From Chitinophagales bacterium (lineage in GTDB: Bacteria > Bacteroidota > Bacteroidia > Chitinophagales > S012-47): a stretch of 32,624 nucleotides of DNA. Of the stretch, positions 52 to 9,765 are shown piece after piece (within the stretch, counting starts at the first letter, position 1; each line of letters opens with the position of its first letter). The notes under the pieces were generated by a model. It had not been told where the DNA came from and did not search any database. It saw nothing but the letters and a program-made list of their open reading frames with translations. The stretch lies in contig WFPF01000080.1 of the NCBI GenBank assembly GCA_015487695.1, forward strand, positions 1-32,624. The letters are read 5' to 3'. The position numbers and the translations under genes were made by a program.

Positions 52-1071
52 ATGAAAAATGCAACCCTAACCGTTATTCTTACATCTTTTCTTTTTACCT
101 TCATCCTTATCTCATGCAATAAAAACAATTTAAAAGAATTGGAAAATAAAAGCACACCCGCTCCCTCCTATAAAACCTTCAGCTATGCCGATGCTCCGCT
201 GGATACGGCCATGGTTTTTATCGAAGAGGTGGTCAATCACGATGAGGGCAATGCATCACATGTATATACGGATATGATAATTGACAGTGTAGCATATAGC
301 TTTAGCGTAACTCCGATAACGGTAAACGGAGTATCCGGCCTTTCGGCTGCTGAACAGCAGCGCATCAAAGACAGTGTACTCGTACGCACACGAAATTATC
401 CTTCGCGTGTGGATACCACGCTGCTCAACGACCCCGATCTCGTCTTTGTTGACATCAGCGGATGGGAACTCAACGGCAATACCCTGAGTTTTTGGGGGAA
501 TTCAGGAATTGGTGATTTGGATCCGAATTACCTCGGTGCCGATTGCCAGGCACCTAAGCCCTATACCTCAAATGATTATTGGAATTTTGATCTTTATGGA
601 AACGGAGGCGGTTGTAAAACAAACCCGGCCACTACATCAAGTGCTTCGCTAGAAATGGAAAAACGATTGAACTATATGAAATCGGCACAATGCAATATCA
701 CACCCTGTATAAACAGTATCGCGTATTATTCTAACATTGAGGTTATCCCCGATCTATACCCTTATGGATTTCCATCCAGCCCTGATCCCACCGGAGCCTT
801 TGACGGCTATATGGATCATTTGCTTTTTGCTACCAGAGATTACTTACGCGGTTGTGCCACAAGCAATCCGGCAGATTGCATATGCCTCTCTCCCGTGGAA
901 ATGGAATATCATACAAATGGAGCCATTCATATCTCCTATATGTCATCCATCAGACCAAATACGAGTTTAGTACCCTTTTATTATGATTTAAAACCTCGAT
1001 TATTACGTGGAGAACTTTTCCCGAAGATCCATACCTTATCAATAACTTATGGAAAAATCAAATGCCAATAA
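52..1071 (+). CDS. Hypothetical lipoprotein
   Basis: I do not recognise the family. The first 22 residues form a lipoprotein signal: Met-Lys-Asn, a hydrophobic stretch, then lipobox Leu-Ile-Ser-Cys with the lipidated Cys at residue 22, so the 339-residue product should be anchored in the periplasmic or outer membrane leaflet. The mature part is rich in Asn, Ser, Tyr and Pro, holds about eight further cysteines (several in the second half, which could form disulfides), and shows no catalytic motif I know. Its stop overlaps the start of the next gene by one base (TAATG), so the two are probably translationally coupled and may act together at the cell surface. Base composition is clearly AT-richer (about 35-38% GC in two 60-base samples) than the genes beyond 2.3 kb, a hint of acquired DNA. 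Confidence 0.8.
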   Translation: MKNATLTVILTSFLFTFILISCNKNNLKELENKSTPAPSYKTFSYADAPLDTAMVFIEEVVNHDEGNASHVYTDMIIDSVAYSFSVTPITVNGVSGLSAAEQQRIKDSVLVRTRNYPSRVDTTLLNDPDLVFVDISGWELNGNTLSFWGNSGIGDLDPNYLGADCQAPKPYTSNDYWNFDLYGNGGGCKTNPATTSSASLEMEKRLNYMKSAQCNITPCINSIAYYSNIEVIPDLYPYGFPSSPDPTGAFDGYMDHLLFATRDYLRGCATSNPADCICLSPVEMEYHTNGAIHISYMSSIRPNTSLVPFYYDLKPRLLRGELFPKIHTLSITYGKIKCQ

Positions 1072-2537
1072 TGAGATACATTTTAATCCTTCTATCCCTT
1101 TCCTTCGTCTTAAGTTTAACGGCTCAGGATTCCATTTCCTCTTTAATATACGGAAGCAATCTGGATGATGATATTGCAGATGCAGAACTATTGTCAAACG
1201 GTGAAGTGCTTGTTATCGGAACAAGTGATTCAAGCAATCAACTTGCTTACCCCTTATTATTCACTGTGGATAGTAACTTAAATATCAAGGATTTTTCCTT
1301 TCTTTATTCCAAATTGGATGCCAAACTCCGCTTAATTATTAAATTTGAGAATCAGCTCTACATTCTGGCATCCGCAGACAATCCTTCATCAACTACTCAT
1401 TTCCTCTTATTAGAGATCCACGGTGATTTTTCATACACACTGGTTGATTCTATAAACACTTCGATGTTCTATCCATCGATTAGGGGTTATAAAGTACATA
1501 ATGATCATGCCTATATTGTAGGAGACGGGGCCCCACAGAAGAACCCGGCAGATAATAATGCTTTTATTCTTTCGATTAATTCAAGAAACAATCAATTATC
1601 TTTTTCTGAAATTGCCCTCAAGGGTTACAATTTTGCTTTCGATATTTATTGCAAAGAAGACTCTTCCTTTGTAATGACACTTGTGGAGATTACAACCGAA
1701 GATCCCGCATCACGTGTTAAAGTCTGTACTCTTTCCAAAGACTTAATCATTGAAAACTGCAATTACACACCCCTTTCAATACAGTTTAATACAAAGATTC
1801 TTTCTGTAAGTGATACAAATATTATCTTATCCGGAAGATCATCTCAATATTACCCCAATCCAATTGACGATCAATTATTAGTCGCTTCCTTCAATCAAAA
1901 CTCCGATACTTTAAAATTCATAGATTCTCTTCAATTTGGAAAGTATTACAAGGATGAGGTTCCGGCATTTAGAGCAGTGACCGGCAGCCATGATAATTAT
2001 TACATTGGCGGCACCAGCGGATTTGACGCTTTCAGTTATCCTTTTACATATTTTGAGAACCATTATATTGTAGCATCTTTTGACAAACAATTCAATAAAA
2101 GATTTACCAGATATATTGGCCTTAAAAACAACTATATCGTTCTTACCAAGACAATTCCCCTGAACAATGAAAACTCTATTCTTCTCGTAGGGACGTCTTT
2201 TAATTTTAGAAAGCAGACTCAACTTAGGCAACGGGATATCTACATTGTCAGACTGGACAGCCTTGGAAACATTGCCACCGGCCTCCCCCCGGAAATGCTA
2301 GCGGAGAATGATTTTCTTCTCTATCCCAATCCCGGCTCGGATTATCTGCAGGTCTCGCTGCCCAATGCGTCCTCCGGCCGCTTTGCCCTGTACGACATGC
2401 AGGGGCGCCTCATCGAATGGCAGCTCTTCCGGCAGCATCTGCAGATCAATACGGCCGGGTTGCCTGCCGGCATCTACATCTATCGCATCAGCGATGAGAA
2501 AGAAAGGCAGCACTTCGGAAAGTGGATAAAACAGTAA
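1071..2537 (+). CDS. Exported T9SS cargo protein with type A sorting domain
   Basis: The protein has a Sec signal peptide (hydrophobic run ending Leu-Thr-Ala-Gln) and a C-terminal domain of about 75 residues typical of type A T9SS sorting signals: LLYPNPGSDYLQV, then ALYDMQGRLI and GLPAGIYIYRI. Such proteins cross the outer membrane by type IX secretion and are released or anchored after removal of this domain. The body (residues about 20-405) is beta-rich and looks like a repeat or propeller fold, but I cannot assign an activity. I take the ATG at 1071, which overlaps the previous stop codon, rather than the ATG at 1062, because it leaves a standard signal peptide. Composition changes sharply near 2270-2300: the body is about 32% GC and the sorting domain about 62% in sampled 60-base blocks. 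Confidence 0.85.
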   Translation: MRYILILLSLSFVLSLTAQDSISSLIYGSNLDDDIADAELLSNGEVLVIGTSDSSNQLAYPLLFTVDSNLNIKDFSFLYSKLDAKLRLIIKFENQLYILASADNPSSTTHFLLLEIHGDFSYTLVDSINTSMFYPSIRGYKVHNDHAYIVGDGAPQKNPADNNAFILSINSRNNQLSFSEIALKGYNFAFDIYCKEDSSFVMTLVEITTEDPASRVKVCTLSKDLIIENCNYTPLSIQFNTKILSVSDTNIILSGRSSQYYPNPIDDQLLVASFNQNSDTLKFIDSLQFGKYYKDEVPAFRAVTGSHDNYYIGGTSGFDAFSYPFTYFENHYIVASFDKQFNKRFTRYIGLKNNYIVLTKTIPLNNENSILLVGTSFNFRKQTQLRQRDIYIVRLDSLGNIATGLPPEMLAENDFLLYPNPGSDYLQVSLPNASSGRFALYDMQGRLIEWQLFRQHLQINTAGLPAGIYIYRISDEKERQHFGKWIKQ

Positions 2538-2546
2538 TACACTAGC

Positions 2547-4523
2547 TCAGTCTTTTCCCGCTCCGGTTTCCAATATGCGCACTTCTACCCGCTGGTTGCG
2601 TTTTCTTCCTGCTTCCGTCTCGTTGCTGTCGATGGGCTGTTCCTTGCCATAGCCGCGATGCTGCAATTGAGCAGGCGCCACACCCCGCGATATCAGGTAT
2701 TGCACCACGGCATGGGCCCGTTCCTCGGACAATTTCAGGCAATAACTGCTTGAGCATCGGTTGTTGGTGTGGCCGGCAATTTCTACCACGAGTCCTTCGT
2801 GCTTCAGGAGAAAAGTCGCCAGCTCATCAAGTGCCGGGAAAGAGGTTTCTTTCAATATGGAGCTGTTGGCTTCGAAGAAAATATGCTCAATCGGCACGAC
2901 AACCCCCTTGCGAAGAGGATAGAGTGCCAGCGTAATGTCATTTCCCATCTCTTCGCTCCAGAAAGTGTTGGCCGTAAAATATCCCTCAGCCGAAGCCTGT
3001 ATTCTAAGGGGTATTTCCAACTCTGACAGTTTCATATAAAGAGCAAAGGTGTTGCCAATGGTGCCTACTGTTGTTCCATTTACATATACCACTATCATGG
3101 CTTCCAGCGGCCGGCCGCTTTCCCCTTCAACAATCCGTATACGGAGATTTGCTCCGCCCGTATCGCTTTCCGCTGCCGGAGAAGTAATTTCAAATATCTC
3201 ACTTTCGAAGCCTTTCACATATCGAACGAAGTAGGCCGTTTTCCCGTCATCGCTCAGGCTGAAATAGGTCTCCCAGGCGGCCGAATTGATTTCAGGGCCG
3301 AGGTTGACCGGCTCCGACCAGCGAAGCCAGCTATCATCGAGGCGCTTGCTGCGATAGAGGTCGAAATCGCCATATCCGCTGTGTCCTCGTGATGCAAAGT
3401 AGAGGTATTCGCCCTTCGAATCGATGAAAGGCGTAACCTCATCGGCTACGGTATTGACGGGAGAAGAAATATTTTCAGGTTCCGACCAGACACCGTCCGG
3501 GCCGGCAAAGGAGACATAAAGGTCTTTGCTCTTGCGGCTGTCCTTTCGCTCCAGGGAGAGGATCATGGTCTTCTCGTCAGCCGAAACATGGAAGGATGTG
3601 TTGGGGGATACATTGTAGAAATTTCGCAGCCTGACCACCCCGGGCAGTGAAAATCCGTTGCCAAGCCACGTGAGTGTATAGAGTTGGTCGCTCCCGCTGC
3701 TGCCGTTCATGTTGCCCGCACACCAGGCCCTTTGGCTTTTTGCCGAAAAGGCATTGAGGTGGTTGTATCCCGGAGAGTTGGCCGGAGCCCCGGCATTGAC
3801 AGCCGCCTGCCATTCCCCGTTCCTTTTGCGGCTGATCCAGATGTCGTCCAGATTTGCCTTTCCATAATTATCCGGGTGTTTTTTTCTGGTAAAGAACAGC
3901 AGGCTGTCGCCCGGTCCGGGCAGGGGGTGCACTTCGCTGTATTTTGAATTTACAGCCGGGCCCAGGCGTCTGATTTCTTTTCCTTCCGCCCAACTGCCTT
4001 CCCTCAGTTCCGGATAGACATCTTCCCCGCGCTCCGAAAGTCCCAGAGCATCAATGTGGTTGTAACCCTGCACCTTCGAGGTATTGAGATAGACGCGAAG
4101 TTTGCCCGCTTTAAATGCCGGAGCAACCCGCAGGCGAAGCAGCGGAGCCTTCGGATCGCTCATACGATGCATTTCATCATTGGCGATCAATAGTGTATTT
4201 CCCGCTTCGTCTTCCAGGCGAACCGCCTCCACCGCACCGGGATGGAAACTTTGAACTATAAGTATCTGCGCTGCCATGATCTCTCTGCCGAAGCTCACCT
4301 CAATATACTCCCCGCCTTTGTCGGGCCATCGGGGCGACCATGCCACCGGACTCGATTCCACAGCGGGCCAGACATCCGGAGCCCCGAGCACCTGCGAGGC
4401 GCTGTACTGAAGCTTGCCGTATTCGGATGAGAAGGATTCGACACCTTTGGCCCAGTTTATGTACTGTGCAGGCAGTGCAAGTGCCGAGAGCAAAAAGAAA
4501 GTACTTAGAAAAAAGAGCTGCAT
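2547..4523 (-). CDS. PorE-like OmpA-family protein
   Basis: This 658-residue exported protein (signal peptide ending Ala-Leu-Pro-Ala-Gln) has four visible parts. Residues about 20-165 look like a galactose-binding or discoidin-type beta domain. Residues about 190-440 hold PD40/WD40-like propeller blades (for example FSLSDDGKTAYFV). Residues about 450-535 resemble a carboxypeptidase-regulatory-like domain. Residues 541-658 are an OmpA C-terminal peptidoglycan-binding domain. Propeller, regulatory domain and OmpA in this order match PorE, the T9SS component that ties the machine to peptidoglycan, but PorE starts with TPR repeats and this protein does not. In the OmpA domain the peptidoglycan-binding Asp is Asn (HTNN, residue 587), while Arg602 is kept; Cys590 and Cys595 flank the loop, a variant I associate with other Bacteroidota. 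It converges with the T9SS cargo gene, nine bases between stops. A direct T9SS role is inference. Confidence 0.85.
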   Translation of the reverse strand: MQLFFLSTFFLLSALALPAQYINWAKGVESFSSEYGKLQYSASQVLGAPDVWPAVESSPVAWSPRWPDKGGEYIEVSFGREIMAAQILIVQSFHPGAVEAVRLEDEAGNTLLIANDEMHRMSDPKAPLLRLRVAPAFKAGKLRVYLNTSKVQGYNHIDALGLSERGEDVYPELREGSWAEGKEIRRLGPAVNSKYSEVHPLPGPGDSLLFFTRKKHPDNYGKANLDDIWISRKRNGEWQAAVNAGAPANSPGYNHLNAFSAKSQRAWCAGNMNGSSGSDQLYTLTWLGNGFSLPGVVRLRNFYNVSPNTSFHVSADEKTMILSLERKDSRKSKDLYVSFAGPDGVWSEPENISSPVNTVADEVTPFIDSKGEYLYFASRGHSGYGDFDLYRSKRLDDSWLRWSEPVNLGPEINSAAWETYFSLSDDGKTAYFVRYVKGFESEIFEITSPAAESDTGGANLRIRIVEGESGRPLEAMIVVYVNGTTVGTIGNTFALYMKLSELEIPLRIQASAEGYFTANTFWSEEMGNDITLALYPLRKGVVVPIEHIFFEANSSILKETSFPALDELATFLLKHEGLVVEIAGHTNNRCSSSYCLKLSEERAHAVVQYLISRGVAPAQLQHRGYGKEQPIDSNETEAGRKRNQRVEVRILETGAGKD

Positions 4524-4614
4524 CGGCTAAAGTGAAAAAAGGTTAATGGAATAAACGTTTGGCATATTGTAATATCAAAGCACTCGAATTTACTGACATA
4601 AAAAAAGAAAAACT

Positions 4615-5064
4615 ATGAAAAATTTAATGTTTCTTGCCGCCCTCCTGCTTCTCTCCACTACCATGTTTGCACAGAAACCGGGTCTAAGTCCCGAAGAGAA
4701 AGCCCTGCTGATCACCAATAAGATGAAAGAAGATCAACTGATCAGCGAAGAACAATTTGACCGGATCTACGAAATCAATCTGAAAACAGCCGAAGAAAAG
4801 AAAGCCAAAACAGAAGCCTTCAAAGCCCAAAGGGACGCTTTCCGAAATGAACTAAAGAGCGCAGAAGAAAAAAGATGGAAGGCCTATGAGGATGTTTTGA
4901 CACCGGAGCAAATGCGCGAAGTGAAAATTGCCCGTGCCAAGCGCAAAGTAGCCATGGCCAGGAAGAGAAAACTGATGGCCCGGAGGAAAGCGAAGTTCGA
5001 TCAGATGAATAAGGCAAATTTTCCGCCTCAGCATCCCACTCAGGCAGCACCTCCGGCCAAATAA
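4615..5064 (+). CDS. Small basic helical exported protein
   Basis: The 149-residue product begins with a clear signal peptide (cut after Met-Phe-Ala-Gln) and continues as an almost purely helical, Lys/Arg/Glu/Ala-rich chain with a Pro-rich tail. The pattern, including a TPEQ motif (residues 97-100), resembles periplasmic Spy/CpxP-like or DUF4890-type proteins, which act as small chaperones or stress proteins; I infer this from composition and layout, not from a diagnostic motif. It is divergent from the OmpA-family gene (91 bases apart) and monocistronic, closed by a strong terminator at 5090-5131. Confidence 0.75.
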   Translation: MKNLMFLAALLLLSTTMFAQKPGLSPEEKALLITNKMKEDQLISEEQFDRIYEINLKTAEEKKAKTEAFKAQRDAFRNELKSAEEKRWKAYEDVLTPEQMREVKIARAKRKVAMARKRKLMARRKAKFDQMNKANFPPQHPTQAAPPAK

Positions 5065-5089
5065 ATAAGCAGTCCCCTCACCGCAGATG

Positions 5090-5131
5090 AAGAGGTCGCT
5101 CCGCTAATCCGGAGCGGCCTCTTTTCTTTTT
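5090..5131 (+). terminator. Rho-independent terminator
   Basis: A 14-base-pair stem (AAGAGGTCGCTCCG with CGGAGCGGCCTCTT, one G-U pair), a six-base loop and a T-rich tail follow the small exported-protein gene and separate it from the mnmA promoter. Confidence 0.9.
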
Positions 5132-5157
5132 AGTGAACCTTCCGCAGGCGGAATTTG

Positions 5158-5165
5158 TACTTTTG
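5158..5165 (+). promoter_or_regulatory. -7 promoter element of mnmA
   Basis: TACTTTTG is a perfect match to the Bacteroidota housekeeping element TAnnTTTG, 20 bases before the ATG at 5186. I see no clear -33 TTTG. Its position argues against the in-frame GTG at 5165 being the start codon, because that GTG would lie within or before the transcription start. Confidence 0.7.
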
Positions 5166-5185
5166 TGAAAATTGGCCACAAAAAG

Positions 5186-6289
5186 ATGAGCAAGCACGGA
5201 AAAGTACTCGTAGCCATGAGCGGGGGAATCGACAGCACGGTGACCGCCCGGCTGCTGCACGATGAAGGATATGAGGTGATCGGCATCACGATGAAGACCT
5301 GGGACTATGCAAGTTCAGGGGGTTCGAAAAAGGAAACCGGATGCTGCAGCCTGGACTCCATCAACGATGCCCGCCAGGTGGCGGTAGATGCCGGATTCGC
5401 CCACTACATCGTAGACATCAGGGATGAGTTTGGTGACTATGTCATTGACAACTTCGTAGATGAATACCTGGCCGGCCGGACACCCAACCCCTGTATCCTC
5501 TGCAATACACATATCAAGTGGGAATCCCTGCTGAAAAGAGCCGATGCCATGGATTGCGAGTTCATTGCAACGGGACACTACGCCAAACTGCAGCATAAAA
5601 ACGGAAGATACTATGTATCCAAAGCCAAGGACGAAAACAAAGACCAGTCCTATGTACTCTGGGGCCTGAGTCAGGAATGCCTCGCCCGCACCCGTTTTCC
5701 GCTGGGCGATATGCGCAAGCCCGAAGTGCGTCAACTTGCCATGGACTGGGGCTATACCGACCTTGCAAAAAAGGGCGAAAGCTATGAAATCTGCTTTATC
5801 CCCGACAACGACTACCATGCTTTCCTGAAAAGGCGGGTAGACGGCCTGGAAGAGAAACTCCGCGATGGTGTTTTTGTCAATGAAAAGGGAGAAGTCATCG
5901 GCCGGCATGAAGGATATCCTTTCTTCACCATCGGACAAAGAAGAGGACTGGGCGATGCTTTCGGCAAACCCATGTATGTCACCGAAATACATCCCGAGCG
6001 CAATACGGTGGTACTGGGAGAGCTTGAAGACCTCAACCGAAACGGCCTGCGGGCCGGAAAGCTCAATATGATGAAATATGAAAGAATAGAAGACGGTCTG
6101 GAGGCCGTCACCAAGATTCGCTACAACAACCCAGGTACCCTGAGCAAGCTCTTTATGGAAAATGACGACATGATGCGTGTCGAGTTTGATGCCTATGTCA
6201 AGGCCATCGCGCCCGGCCAGTCAGCCGTATTCTACGAAGGCGATGACGTGATCGGTGGCGGAACCATTTATGAGAGTTTCAATCTCTGA
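5186..6289 (+). CDS. mnmA: tRNA 2-thiouridylase MnmA
   Basis: MnmA uses ATP and a relayed persulfide sulfur to thiolate U34 of tRNA for Lys, Glu and Gln in the cytoplasm. The protein (367 residues) shows the PP-loop SGGIDS at residues 12-17, the first catalytic cysteine in NPCILC (Cys103, with Cys106 close by), the ATGHYA motif, and the second catalytic cysteine in YEICFIP (Cys203); length is normal for the family. The start is set at ATG 5186 because the promoter element ends at 5165. The gene stands alone between a terminator and a convergent membrane-protein gene. Confidence 0.96.
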   Translation: MSKHGKVLVAMSGGIDSTVTARLLHDEGYEVIGITMKTWDYASSGGSKKETGCCSLDSINDARQVAVDAGFAHYIVDIRDEFGDYVIDNFVDEYLAGRTPNPCILCNTHIKWESLLKRADAMDCEFIATGHYAKLQHKNGRYYVSKAKDENKDQSYVLWGLSQECLARTRFPLGDMRKPEVRQLAMDWGYTDLAKKGESYEICFIPDNDYHAFLKRRVDGLEEKLRDGVFVNEKGEVIGRHEGYPFFTIGQRRGLGDAFGKPMYVTEIHPERNTVVLGELEDLNRNGLRAGKLNMMKYERIEDGLEAVTKIRYNNPGTLSKLFMENDDMMRVEFDAYVKAIAPGQSAVFYEGDDVIGGGTIYESFNL

Positions 6290-6366
6290 TCTATCGGGCA
6301 GGTCCTTGCTGCTGATCAAATTGCTTTCCTTACGGACTAAAGAATCCGGATCTCTACAATGTATTG

Positions 6367-6948
6367 TTATGCGGCTTCGCGAAGTCTCGGGAATGAGCGG
6401 CTGACCCACTCAAAAGATCCGAAGAGCACAGCCGAGAAGAAGAGATTGCCGGCCAGGGTATTGAGCAAGGGGCTGCCAATGGCATTGCCCTGAAAAAATG
6501 CCAGTCCGGCTGCGTAAGCAGCCATCAGGCCCGAGAAATCCTGCGGATAATAGGGACTGCCCAGCCATGCCCCGAAATTGGTAATTAAAAAGAAAAGAAC
6601 GGACGAAGACAAAGCGGCAAGTGCCAGCGATTTTACACCAAGCGAATGGCGCAGTTTCAGCCCGATGGCCCAAATGAGCACAAAGCTTCCGTACACGAAA
6701 TACATTCCGCTGTAAAAGCCATAGCCGGTCATCAGCTCCAAAAGGAAATCGGTAAGAAGAAGTGCGGCAAGGGGAATGAGAAGCCCGAGCCACTGCCGCC
6801 TGAAATAGGCGGCACCGAAGAGGGCCATGGCCCCTATCGGAGCAAAATTGGGGATAGGGATCATCAGGAGGCGGGTCAAAGCCACGGCAAGGATCATGCT
6901 GCTGAGCACGGCAATGCGTTGAAAGGTCGGGTTTTTAATCGTCTTCAT
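6367..6948 (-). CDS. DUF6580-family integral membrane protein
   Basis: A 193-residue, very hydrophobic protein with about five membrane segments. The conserved features I remember for DUF6580 (a putative transport family of Bacteroidota) are present: PNFAPIGAMALFGAAYF near the N-terminus, LLLTDFLLE in the middle, LITNFGAWL and a closing AVLFGSFEW. The substrate is unknown. The start is placed at 6948 (Met-Lys-Thr-Ile-Lys); a longer reading to 7188 would run across the divergent promoter and start of the next gene. It converges with mnmA, with 77 bases between that show no clear terminator. Confidence 0.8.
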   Translation of the reverse strand: MKTIKNPTFQRIAVLSSMILAVALTRLLMIPIPNFAPIGAMALFGAAYFRRQWLGLLIPLAALLLTDFLLELMTGYGFYSGMYFVYGSFVLIWAIGLKLRHSLGVKSLALAALSSSVLFFLITNFGAWLGSPYYPQDFSGLMAAYAAGLAFFQGNAIGSPLLNTLAGNLFFSAVLFGSFEWVSRSFPRLREAA

Positions 6949-7090
6949 AGTTTTTGCTGCTTTCTGCAAAATTAAAAAAATCCAGCTCCCGAAATGATCC
7001 CATTTTACGACAAGCTTCTTTTTCAGAATAAAAGAAGACGCTGCGTGGAAAGATTTTCCGGAATTTATCAGCTGAAAAATATGTGCGTTG

Positions 7091-7098
7091 TACTTTTG
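7091..7098 (+). promoter_or_regulatory. -7 promoter element
   Basis: TACTTTTG matches TAnnTTTG exactly and lies 20 bases before the ATG at 7119, the same spacing as for mnmA. It sets the start of the small downstream gene and rules out the upstream in-frame ATG at 7083. Confidence 0.65.
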
Positions 7099-7118
7099 TC
7101 GAAAATAAGAGGTATAAA

Positions 7119-7445
7119 ATGGTAGAAAGCAAAGTAATAAAGAGAATTGAGAAATTACGGAAAAGTATTGCCCGCGATGGTGTTTCACCGGAAGCGCTGG
7201 CTACCGAGCTGAAAGAGATACGGGAAGAGGTCAAAGCGCTTGACAAGTACCCCCTCGTGGTCAGGGCGCTCCGTCTGGTATATGAATACATAGAGCAGGC
7301 GGGTACCTTCGATATTCAGTTTCTCGAAGACAGTGCCGATCCGGTAGAAAACCTGGACTACTACCTCCAACTGCTGGAGCACCCCGAGAACCAATACAAT
7401 CAGGAAGAACTACTGGAACTCACCGAAGCGCTGAAGCAACTCTGA
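7119..7445 (+). CDS. Small helical protein, unknown function
   Basis: I do not recognise this 108-residue cytoplasmic protein. It has no signal or membrane segment. It is predicted almost all helical: a basic N-terminal helix (VIKRIEKLRK), an acidic-basic middle, and a very acidic C-terminal half rich in Glu, Leu and Gln. There are no cysteines and no known motif. It has its own promoter (7091-7098) and an AGAGG ribosome site, so it is probably a genuine single gene. It converges on ftsE, with nine bases between the two stop codons. Confidence 0.7.
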   Translation: MVESKVIKRIEKLRKSIARDGVSPEALATELKEIREEVKALDKYPLVVRALRLVYEYIEQAGTFDIQFLEDSADPVENLDYYLQLLEHPENQYNQEELLELTEALKQL

Positions 7446-7454
7446 CGGAGTCGC

Positions 7455-8147
7455 TCAGATGGAAATGCTCTGATTCTCGATGATCTTTCCGTTCTGGCAA
7501 TTGATAATCCGGGCAGGAAATTTTTCCAAGGTGTAATAATCATGCGTGGCCATGAGTACCGTTGTGCCGGTTTCCTCATTGATTTTCCGCATGAGGCGGA
7601 TAATGTCGTCTGATGTTTCGGGGTCGAGGTTGCCGGTCGGTTCATCCGCGAGGATGAGTTCGGGCTCGTTGAGCAGGGCTCTGGCTATGATAATTCGCTG
7701 CTGCTCGCCCCCCGAGAGCTCGTAAGGCCGCTTGAAGCCCTTTGTTTTCAGTCCAACCATATCGAGGGTATAGTCGATGCGTACCTGCATGGCACCCTTG
7801 TCTTTCCATCCCGTGGCCCGTAATACGAAAAGAAGATTATCATGCACTGTGCGGTCAGTCAGCAGGTTGAAATCCTGAAAAACGATCCCCAGTTTTCTGC
7901 GCAGGGCAGGGATTTTCTTCCAGGTCATCTTTGAAAGGTCAAACCCGGCTACACGGCCCGTGCCACTTCTCAGGGGAAGGTCTCCGTAAAGGGTTTTCAG
8001 CAATGAGCTCTTGCCGCTGCCCGTTTTCCCGATCAGGTAAGCAAACGCTCCCTTTCCCAGGCGAAGATTGACATCGGTGAGAATCAGACTTTGATCCTGG
8101 TAGATATTGACATTTTCCAGTTCGATAACAGCCGTCTTGGGATCCAT
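7455..8147 (-). CDS. ftsE: FtsE-like ABC transporter ATPase
   Basis: FtsE pairs with the membrane protein FtsX and drives peptidoglycan hydrolases at the septum. The 230 residues carry Walker A (GKTGSGKSS, 40-48), Q-loop (VFQDFNLL), signature LSGGEQQR (144-151), Walker B LILADEP (164-170) and the switch His202. The sequence is of the FtsE/LolD class; FtsE fits best because of the overall pattern and the lack of a linked LolC/E permease. No ftsX is visible nearby, which in my recollection is common in this phylum. Its ATG overlaps the stop of the short upstream gene by one base (TGATG), so translation is likely coupled. Confidence 0.85.
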   Translation of the reverse strand: MDPKTAVIELENVNIYQDQSLILTDVNLRLGKGAFAYLIGKTGSGKSSLLKTLYGDLPLRSGTGRVAGFDLSKMTWKKIPALRRKLGIVFQDFNLLTDRTVHDNLLFVLRATGWKDKGAMQVRIDYTLDMVGLKTKGFKRPYELSGGEQQRIIIARALLNEPELILADEPTGNLDPETSDDIIRLMRKINEETGTTVLMATHDYYTLEKFPARIINCQNGKIIENQSISI

Positions 8148-8350
8148 CAGAGTTTCAACTTTTTGATTTGTCCATAGGGCAATTCCTCTATGACTTTACG
8201 GATTTCCTCTTCTTTATCAGCGAGGCCGCATTTGGCCAGCGCCCGTTCGGGGCGGTCGGAGCGGAAGTAAGCCAGTAATGTAAAATTGTCATCCCGAATC
8301 TGAACATAATCCGGAATTTTCACCTTGCCTTTGATTTTAAAAATATACAT
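8147..8350 (-). CDS. Short conserved protein upstream of ftsE
   Basis: A 67-residue cytoplasmic protein with a beta-like N-terminal half (YIFKIKGKVKIPDYVQIRD) and a charged helical C-terminal half. From memory it resembles a small family found beside ftsE in flavobacteria (sometimes called Fjo21); I cannot confirm this. The start is taken at ATG 8350 (Met-Tyr-Ile-Phe) rather than the longer reading to 8389, because the extra residues look unrelated. It is translationally coupled to ftsE. Confidence 0.7.
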   Translation of the reverse strand: MYIFKIKGKVKIPDYVQIRDDNFTLLAYFRSDRPERALAKCGLADKEEEIRKVIEELPYGQIKKLKL

Positions 8351-8454
8351 GGTGCAGAAAATGGGAGTTTTAATAATCACGCATGTCAAAAGTAAGAGGG
8401 ATAACGAACTATACCGAGTAAATTATACGATGCCCTGTCCGAATGTGCAATAAT

Positions 8455-9102
8455 TTAGACGACTTCGGCAATGATGCCCCAGGCACTCAGAACTCCGCCA
8501 ACACCTGTAATGACATACTGAATACCTATGCACATGACCAAAAAGCCAATTATCCGTGAGATGGAATTGAGACCTGCCACCCCGATCAATTTGAAAAGAC
8601 GGGGAGAAACCACCAGAATAAAGAAAGTGACAAGGCCCAGCAGCACAATGGTCGAAGGAATGATGATAAACTGATACACCTCATTGGCAGCGTAATACAA
8701 TCCTATGAGCAGCGAGATGGACCCCGGGCCTGCCAGAAGGGGTATGGCCAACGGAGTCAAAGAGATATCTTCCTTCTCGCGGGCTTCCTGCCTTACCTTT
8801 TTATCAATGGTCCGGCTTTTTGCAAACTCACCCCTCAAAAGCGAATATCCCGAGATAAAGATGATAATTCCGCCTGCAATGCGCATGGAATCAATGGAGA
8901 TATGGAAGAATCCCAGTATATAAGTCCCCGTAAAGAAGAAGATCAGCAGTATGATAACGAAATACAGGGATGTTCTGAATGCAATATTGATAATCTCCTT
9001 CCGCTCATAGCCCTGGGTGAGCGAAAGAAACACCGGCATGGCACCGAGCGGATCCACCACGGAAAAGAGCGATGCAAATACGGATAGGAAATAAGCCATC
9101 AT
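8455..9102 (-). CDS. MarC-family integral membrane protein
   Basis: A 215-residue protein with six hydrophobic segments. Family features of MarC/UPF0056 proteins are clear: FSVVDPLGAMPVFLSLT near the N-terminus, the MRIAGG motif, PLAIPLLAGPGSI in the loop before segment four, and ISRIIGFLVMCIGIQ near the end. The function of the family is unsettled; some archaeal members are reported to transport neutral amino acids, and the multiple-antibiotic-resistance link of E. coli MarC was not upheld. Start codons at 9102 and 9099 are both possible. A -7 element lies only seven bases upstream of the first. Confidence 0.88.
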   Translation of the reverse strand: MMAYFLSVFASLFSVVDPLGAMPVFLSLTQGYERKEIINIAFRTSLYFVIILLIFFFTGTYILGFFHISIDSMRIAGGIIIFISGYSLLRGEFAKSRTIDKKVRQEAREKEDISLTPLAIPLLAGPGSISLLIGLYYAANEVYQFIIIPSTIVLLGLVTFFILVVSPRLFKLIGVAGLNSISRIIGFLVMCIGIQYVITGVGGVLSAWGIIAEVV

Positions 9103-9109
9103 GACCCGG

Positions 9110-9117
9110 CAAAAATA
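9110..9117 (-). promoter_or_regulatory. -7 promoter element of the MarC-family gene
   Basis: Read on the minus strand, TATTTTTG matches TAnnTTTG, followed by C as often seen. Only seven bases separate it from the first ATG, so a transcript from it would have almost no leader. No -33 TTTG is seen, so the match could be chance. Confidence 0.45.
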
Positions 9118-9124
9118 GAAATTT

Positions 9125-9182
9125 TAAGATTAGCACCCGGAGGATATTACGAGCTGTCTCATCCTGTCCTCCCCTAATCTTA
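9125..9182. repeat. Long imperfect inverted repeat between divergent genes
   Basis: TAAGATTAG (9125-9133) is perfectly complementary to CTAATCTTA (9174-9182), and inside them GGAGGA (9139-9144) pairs with TCCTCC (9167-9172), leaving a 22-base loop. It lies upstream of both the marC and the sigma-factor promoter elements, so it should not be in either transcript. It could be a DNA-level operator or belong to an unannotated small RNA. Confidence 0.6.
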
Positions 9183-9231
9183 GGTCTAAAGCAATTAACT
9201 TTAAGGAAATTGATTTTTTAGGCGGCTTCCT

Positions 9232-9257
9232 GTAACAAAGAAGGAAGGCCCAACGTC
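9232..9257 (+). promoter_or_regulatory. Candidate ECF-type promoter of the sigma operon
   Basis: GTAAC (9232-9236), a 17-base spacer, then CGTC (9254-9257, continuing TTA) has the layout of promoters used by ECF sigma factors (AAC-type -35, CGTC-type -10). It ends 22 bases before the sigma gene's ATG, and no TAnnTTTG element is evident there. This suggests the sigma factor drives its own operon. Confidence 0.6.
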
Positions 9258-9279
9258 TTACCCGCGAACAATCGGAAAT

Positions 9280-9765
9280 ATGACCAGGGAGGAGTACAAC
9301 AGATGTGTGCGTCAATATGCTGATAATGTGTACCGCTTCGTACTGAAAAACATACGTCATGAGGCCGATGCAGAAGACATTGTTCAGAACAGTTTTGAAA
9401 TCCTTTGGAAGAAACACGAGGAAGTAAATTTTGAAAAAGCAAAGTCCTACTTGTTTATGGTTGCCCGCAATAACATGATCGATCAAATAAGAAAAAGAAA
9501 ACGAGCCGGCATTACGGATGATGAGAGCAAGGCCGATCGCATGGTGAAGAACGAATACACCGGAGCCGGTGAAGCATTGGATTATGCACTGAAGCAACTC
9601 CCCGAAAAACAGCGGGAAGCCATCCTCCTCCGAGATTATGAGGGATACTCTTATCAGGAGATCGGTGAAATAACCGGGCTGAGTGAATCACAGGTGAAAG
9701 TCTACATCTTCAGGGCACGCAGGGCCCTGCAAAAAATATTGGTAAATCCGGAGAATGTGTTATGA
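9280..9765 (+). CDS. ECF-type RNA polymerase sigma factor
   Basis: The 161-residue protein has only the two ECF domains. Sigma region 2 (about 8-75) includes ADAEDIVQNSFEILW and YLFMVARNNMIDQIRKRKR, binding core polymerase and the -10 element. Sigma region 4 (about 98-155) has LPEKQREAILLRDYEGYSYQEI and the helix-turn-helix SESQVKVYIFRARRAL. Its last four bases overlap the start of the anti-sigma-like gene (ATGA), a coupling typical of sigma/anti-sigma pairs. A candidate self-recognised promoter lies just upstream. Confidence 0.95.
   Translation: MTREEYNRCVRQYADNVYRFVLKNIRHEADAEDIVQNSFEILWKKHEEVNFEKAKSYLFMVARNNMIDQIRKRKRAGITDDESKADRMVKNEYTGAGEALDYALKQLPEKQREAILLRDYEGYSYQEIGEITGLSESQVKVYIFRARRALQKILVNPENVL

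Follow-up and report, generated by a model that had tools for sequence, protein, structure and literature searches.

The T9SS type A cargo gene at positions 1071–2537 of the window switches base composition just before its C-terminal sorting domain (CTD). The switch is real, rare and unique within the sampled genome, and we consider it best explained by a mosaic allele, in which an AT-rich body was brought in by recombination and the native tail was kept; we give this reading a probability of about 45%. The acquisition of new secreted proteins in Bacteroidota is mostly inferred from CTD similarity, and this locus offers a concrete, testable case of an apparently resident sorting domain joined to a body of different composition. 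The window, a stretch of 32,624 nt, is contig C80 (G000:C80:1-32624) from its first base, with nothing upstream of position 1. Its source is the metagenome assembly G000 (2.77 Mb, 98.7% complete, 137 contigs), of which about 367 kb of sequence provided the genome background figures.

A T9SS cargo gene coupled to a lipoprotein gene

The features of the locus are listed in Table 1. The cargo ORF spans positions 1062–2537, and the ATG at 1071 overlaps the stop codon of the lipoprotein gene as TAATG; this coupled ATG, rather than position 1062, is likely to be the start. An N-terminal Sec signal peptide beginning at this ATG, MRYILILLSLSFVLSLTAQ, was recognized by inspection. Pfam and NCBIfam searches identified the type A sorting domain (PF18962/TIGR04183), at 52.8 bits against a cut-off of 27 and at 58.1 bits against a cut-off of 23; elsewhere in the protein, they returned weak similarity to SBBP/delta-60 propeller repeats. 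The gene thus resembles T9SS type A cargo in having a signal peptide, a passenger and a C-terminal domain above the curated cut-off, as well as the typical C-terminal motifs LPAGIYIYRI and GKWIK, but differs in that GC3 changes by 0.4 from passenger to domain, compared with 0.17 at most in the 86 other cargo genes measured. It is established that type A CTDs suffice for export of fused proteins (PMC10202324). Given the 88 sorting-domain matches in the genome, the T9SS core (SprA/Sov, PorV and PorU) is very likely encoded there.

Table 1. Features at the cargo locus, in window coordinates
Feature	Position	Strand	Description
Lipoprotein gene, coupled to cargo gene	52..1071	+	339 aa, lipobox LISC; GC 42%, GC3 0.41
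Lipoprotein part matched at the corresponding G001 locus	52..354	+	60% aa, 69% nt identity; GC3 0.41 here versus 0.62 in G001
T9SS type A cargo gene	1071..2537	+	488 aa: signal peptide, beta-rich passenger, sorting domain
AT-rich passenger	1071..2247	+	GC 36%, GC3 0.34; orphan but for a single distant relative, which matches the last third
Composition-switch support interval	2208..2346	+	GC3 change-point test
Type A sorting domain	2319..2537	+	PF18962/TIGR04183; GC 57%, GC3 0.76
Sorting-domain part found at the G001 locus	2451..2537	+	71% aa identity; G001 contig stops there
Convergent OmpA/PD40 gene, locus anchor	2547..4523	-	collinear in G001, 74% aa identity

The lipoprotein gene matched no Pfam, PHROG or PADLOC family. 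The first-pass annotation, which was made from the sequence before this analysis, had described it as AT-rich; it does lean that way, but only moderately (Table 1). AlphaFold models computed from single sequences were too poor for use (pLDDT 37 for the cargo and 32 for the lipoprotein).

Composition switch at the sorting domain

Change-point analysis placed the shift in GC content at position 2247 (35.7% before and 55.7% after; LR 38) and the shift in GC3 at about position 2238 (from 0.34 to 0.71–0.72; LR 44–45), with a support interval of 2208–2346 that includes the start of the sorting domain at 2319. The internal switch near the sorting domain that the first-pass annotation had reported is therefore borne out. 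In 2000 codon shuffles of the cargo gene, the highest LR was 17.5, far below the observed value. The observed LR was also the highest among the 226 ORFs sampled from the genome, the runner-up (31.5) occurring in an ORF of 3050 codons. Likewise, the GC3 step of +0.40 from passenger to sorting domain was the largest among 87 TIGR04183 genes (next largest, +0.17; z 5.5). In the other sorting-domain genes, passenger and domain GC3 were correlated (r = 0.61), and the other AT-rich cargo genes carry AT-rich sorting domains. Codon-use log-odds were AT-type up to about position 2118, mixed up to about 2270 and strongly normal-type in the domain. The sorting domain had been put at about 62% GC; it is GC-rich, but its last 216–250 bases have about 56–57%, and only the central 120 reach about 62%. 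We rejected GC-biased conversion enriching CTDs in GC, since the mean CTD-minus-passenger step was −0.012 and CTDs are on average not richer.

Locus in the sister genome

We compared the locus with that of G001 (JALSIH01), the only congener included. Positions 2461–9517 of the window are collinear with G001 contig C128 at 80% DNA identity, and C128 stops inside the sorting domain. At its end, the domain's last 28–29 codons show 71% identity and the same GC3, beside the same OmpA gene. On the other side, G001 contig C40 carries an M20 peptidase gene and the first 101 lipoprotein codons before it ends. The G001 contigs thus break on both sides, and the segment from lipoprotein codon 102 to sorting-domain codon 43 is missing from that assembly, as expected for a strain-variable segment. 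In G000, contig C57, which bears the M20 gene, stops about 30 bp short of the start of C80. From these four contigs, we conclude that the order M20 peptidase, lipoprotein, cargo and convergent OmpA is genus-wide. Elsewhere in the family, in two further genera, the OmpA gene adjoins a DacB-like gene instead. A scan of GTDB contigs with a lipoprotein profile, using two peptide patterns, matched only G001.

Because the last 28–29 codons have an orthologous counterpart at this locus in G001 and have kept their GC3, residence of the 3′ end of the sorting domain is well supported by sequence comparison; vertical inheritance applies to these codons, the first 43 of the domain falling in the G001 gap. 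The first-pass annotation had proposed a foreign passenger joined to a resident sorting domain. The second half of this proposal holds for the 3′ end of the domain, whereas the first is no more than plausible: the searches yielded no donor, the passenger falls in the G001 gap, and the lipoprotein orthologue is itself AT-shifted in G000.

An assembly artifact could also place two compositions side by side, if the first 2.2 kb of C80 came from another strain or species and were misjoined within the cargo gene. The anomaly does sit right at the beginning of a contig assembled from metagenome data, and both assemblies of the genus break around this stretch. Such a chimera is nonetheless improbable: the join keeps the reading frame and coincides with the domain boundary, G001 synteny puts the lipoprotein gene next to M20, and C57, with the M20 gene of G000, ends close to the start of C80, so that the AT-rich piece lies where the locus would lead one to expect it.

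Sorting domains and passengers in orthologous cargo pairs

The idea that passengers are exchanged through shared sorting-domain DNA was not supported for this gene. The sorting domain of the cargo gene has no close DNA match in its own genome, the best being 77 bp at 77% in a passenger-less scar (C23:1473-1549). Moreover, among 60 pairs of orthologous cargo genes from G000 and G001, picked by reciprocal best passenger match, none combined a conserved domain with an unrelated passenger; all had kept their passenger. Mean identity was 72% for sorting domains versus 83% for passengers, and in 48 of these pairs the domain was the less conserved part. When the two genomes were listed by best domain match, no well-conserved domain was found on an unrelated passenger. 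Over the divergence of the two species, this baseline contains no passenger swap and domains that change faster than passengers, which makes it doubtful that sorting domains often mediate exchange.

The closest published case of passengers joined to a T9SS C-terminal region is that of the KLIKK proteases of Tannerella forsythia, for which fusion of passengers, some of them horizontally acquired, to this region has been proposed (PMC4404884). In that organism, several unrelated passengers carry virtually identical CTDs within one genome, whereas the CTD studied here has no close copy in its genome, and exchange of the KLIKK type through near-identical CTD DNA finds no support here.

The same comparisons bear on the converse event, in which the tail was exchanged rather than the body, so that a native, AT-rich cargo gene acquired a sorting domain rich in GC. 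Three cargo genes of G000 (C25:5395, C85:1934 and C90:5041) that keep their passenger while the domain is strongly diverged speak for it. We regard it as very improbable here, as orthology of the last domain codons in G001 means that any exchange predates the split of the two species, and the domain is without a close DNA relative in the genome.

AT shift in the lipoprotein gene

Over the lipoprotein codons with an orthologue in G001, GC3 differed between G000 and G001 by −0.218, against a background of −0.028 ± 0.068 (325 windows of 101 codons). Third-position changes in this 5′ third of the gene comprised 29 AT-ward and 7 GC-ward changes. Divergence at its fourfold sites was 0.50, compared with 0.52 ± 0.12 in the background, indicating no excess in a test whose power is limited by near-saturation of fourfold divergence. 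This part of the gene is orthologous and at background divergence, yet AT-shifted, so base composition at the locus can change with no import that would be detected. Some of the AT-rich stretch therefore looks either vertically inherited and drifted, or derived from a close relative.

These findings are what would be expected if the lipoprotein and passenger were native and vertically inherited and had drifted to AT in this lineage under relaxed selection, with the domain keeping its composition. Natively AT-rich cargo genes, which occur in both species (C103:90827; GC3 0.29 and 0.36, 95% aa identity), point in the same direction. We nevertheless judge local drift to be rather unlikely. Domains evolve faster than passengers, so drift should hit the domain first; the remaining AT-rich cargo genes have domains that are rich in AT too; and drift does not predict so strong a switch.

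Relatives of the passenger and a possible origin of the AT-rich stretch

No homologue of the passenger was present in G001 or in 60 relatives searched, and none was found in 395 genomes of the phylum; searches of plasmids, phages, PHROGs, PADLOC and PDB gave nothing useful. In 398 genomes of the order, we found one distant relative, with significant alignment over the last third of the passenger only (E 1.5e-11; z 11.6). This relative is a complete cargo protein of 478 aa with its own sorting domain, encoded in an AT-rich Chitinophagales genome, at a locus with 30–34% GC; the gene has a uniform GC3 (0.19 and 0.21). Because the only relative found outside the genome is a full T9SS cargo, the passenger family was, judging from this sequence, probably T9SS cargo before any transfer. 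The earlier suggestion that the mosaic turned an acquired protein into a secreted one is therefore not supported.

If the gene is a mosaic allele, the AT-rich stretch, whose end lies just short of the domain, would represent an allele of different compositional origin. The donor would be a relative richer in AT, in which the passenger already served as T9SS cargo, the stretch would have been imported by recombination, and the resident sorting-domain tail would have been retained at the shared locus. The beta-rich passenger is predicted to be exported by Sec, and its type A domain to be recognized by the T9SS, after which the cargo would be displayed on the surface or released. We infer the import itself, its donor and its left end; foreignness of the passenger is plausible, its basis being compositional. 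Favoring the mosaic are the strength of the switch, the residence of the 3′ end of the domain, the rarity of the passenger, the breaks in the G001 assembly and a CTD on an unrelated passenger elsewhere in G001 (C223, described below). Against it stand the AT-shifted lipoprotein orthologue, the failure to find a donor and the lack of passenger swaps in the 60 pairs.

Possible exchange at the locus and other sorting-domain copies in the genus

A further version of the mosaic would make the locus a site of passenger exchange, at which strains swap the AT-rich lipoprotein/passenger stretch between fixed flanks, namely the start of the lipoprotein gene and the end of the domain. This would explain both the breaks in two independent assemblies and the scar on C23, which belongs to the same CTD subfamily; we consider it unlikely.

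The C23 scar (G000, 1473–1549) consists of about 26 passenger-less codons. At the matching place in G001 (C83, 3375–3515), a longer, intact domain end precedes the same DUF4846-like lipoprotein gene. The C23 site thus represents a lost cargo gene of which the tail survives.

In G001, the cargo gene on C223 has a shared CTD (188 bp, 90% DNA identity) seated on an unrelated propeller passenger. Together with orphan CTD copies on C46, C60 and C86, it resembles the proposed mosaic in placing a CTD on an unrelated passenger within the same genus, but it belongs to another CTD subfamily and has no linkage to the C80 locus. The copies on C46, C60 and C86 are dispersed, passenger-less cargo 3′ ends with CTDs, 90–96% identical in DNA, with short tandem repeats upstream. 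Contigs C67 and C91 of G000 end in this repeat. Minisatellite MITEs of P. gingivalis likewise adjoin CTD genes (PMC4596501).

Adjacent AT-rich gene pairs on C61 and C95 were considered and set aside, as they belong to a different cargo family. In the three genes with conserved passengers and diverged domains, passenger and domain identities were 87% and 33% for C25:5395 (G001 partner C116:3123), 74% and 27% for C85:1934 (C28:898), and 77% and 38% for C90:5041 (C8:4616). These cases may reflect replacement of the tail or its very rapid evolution. In C90:5041, GC3 falls at the domain, from 0.46 to 0.26.
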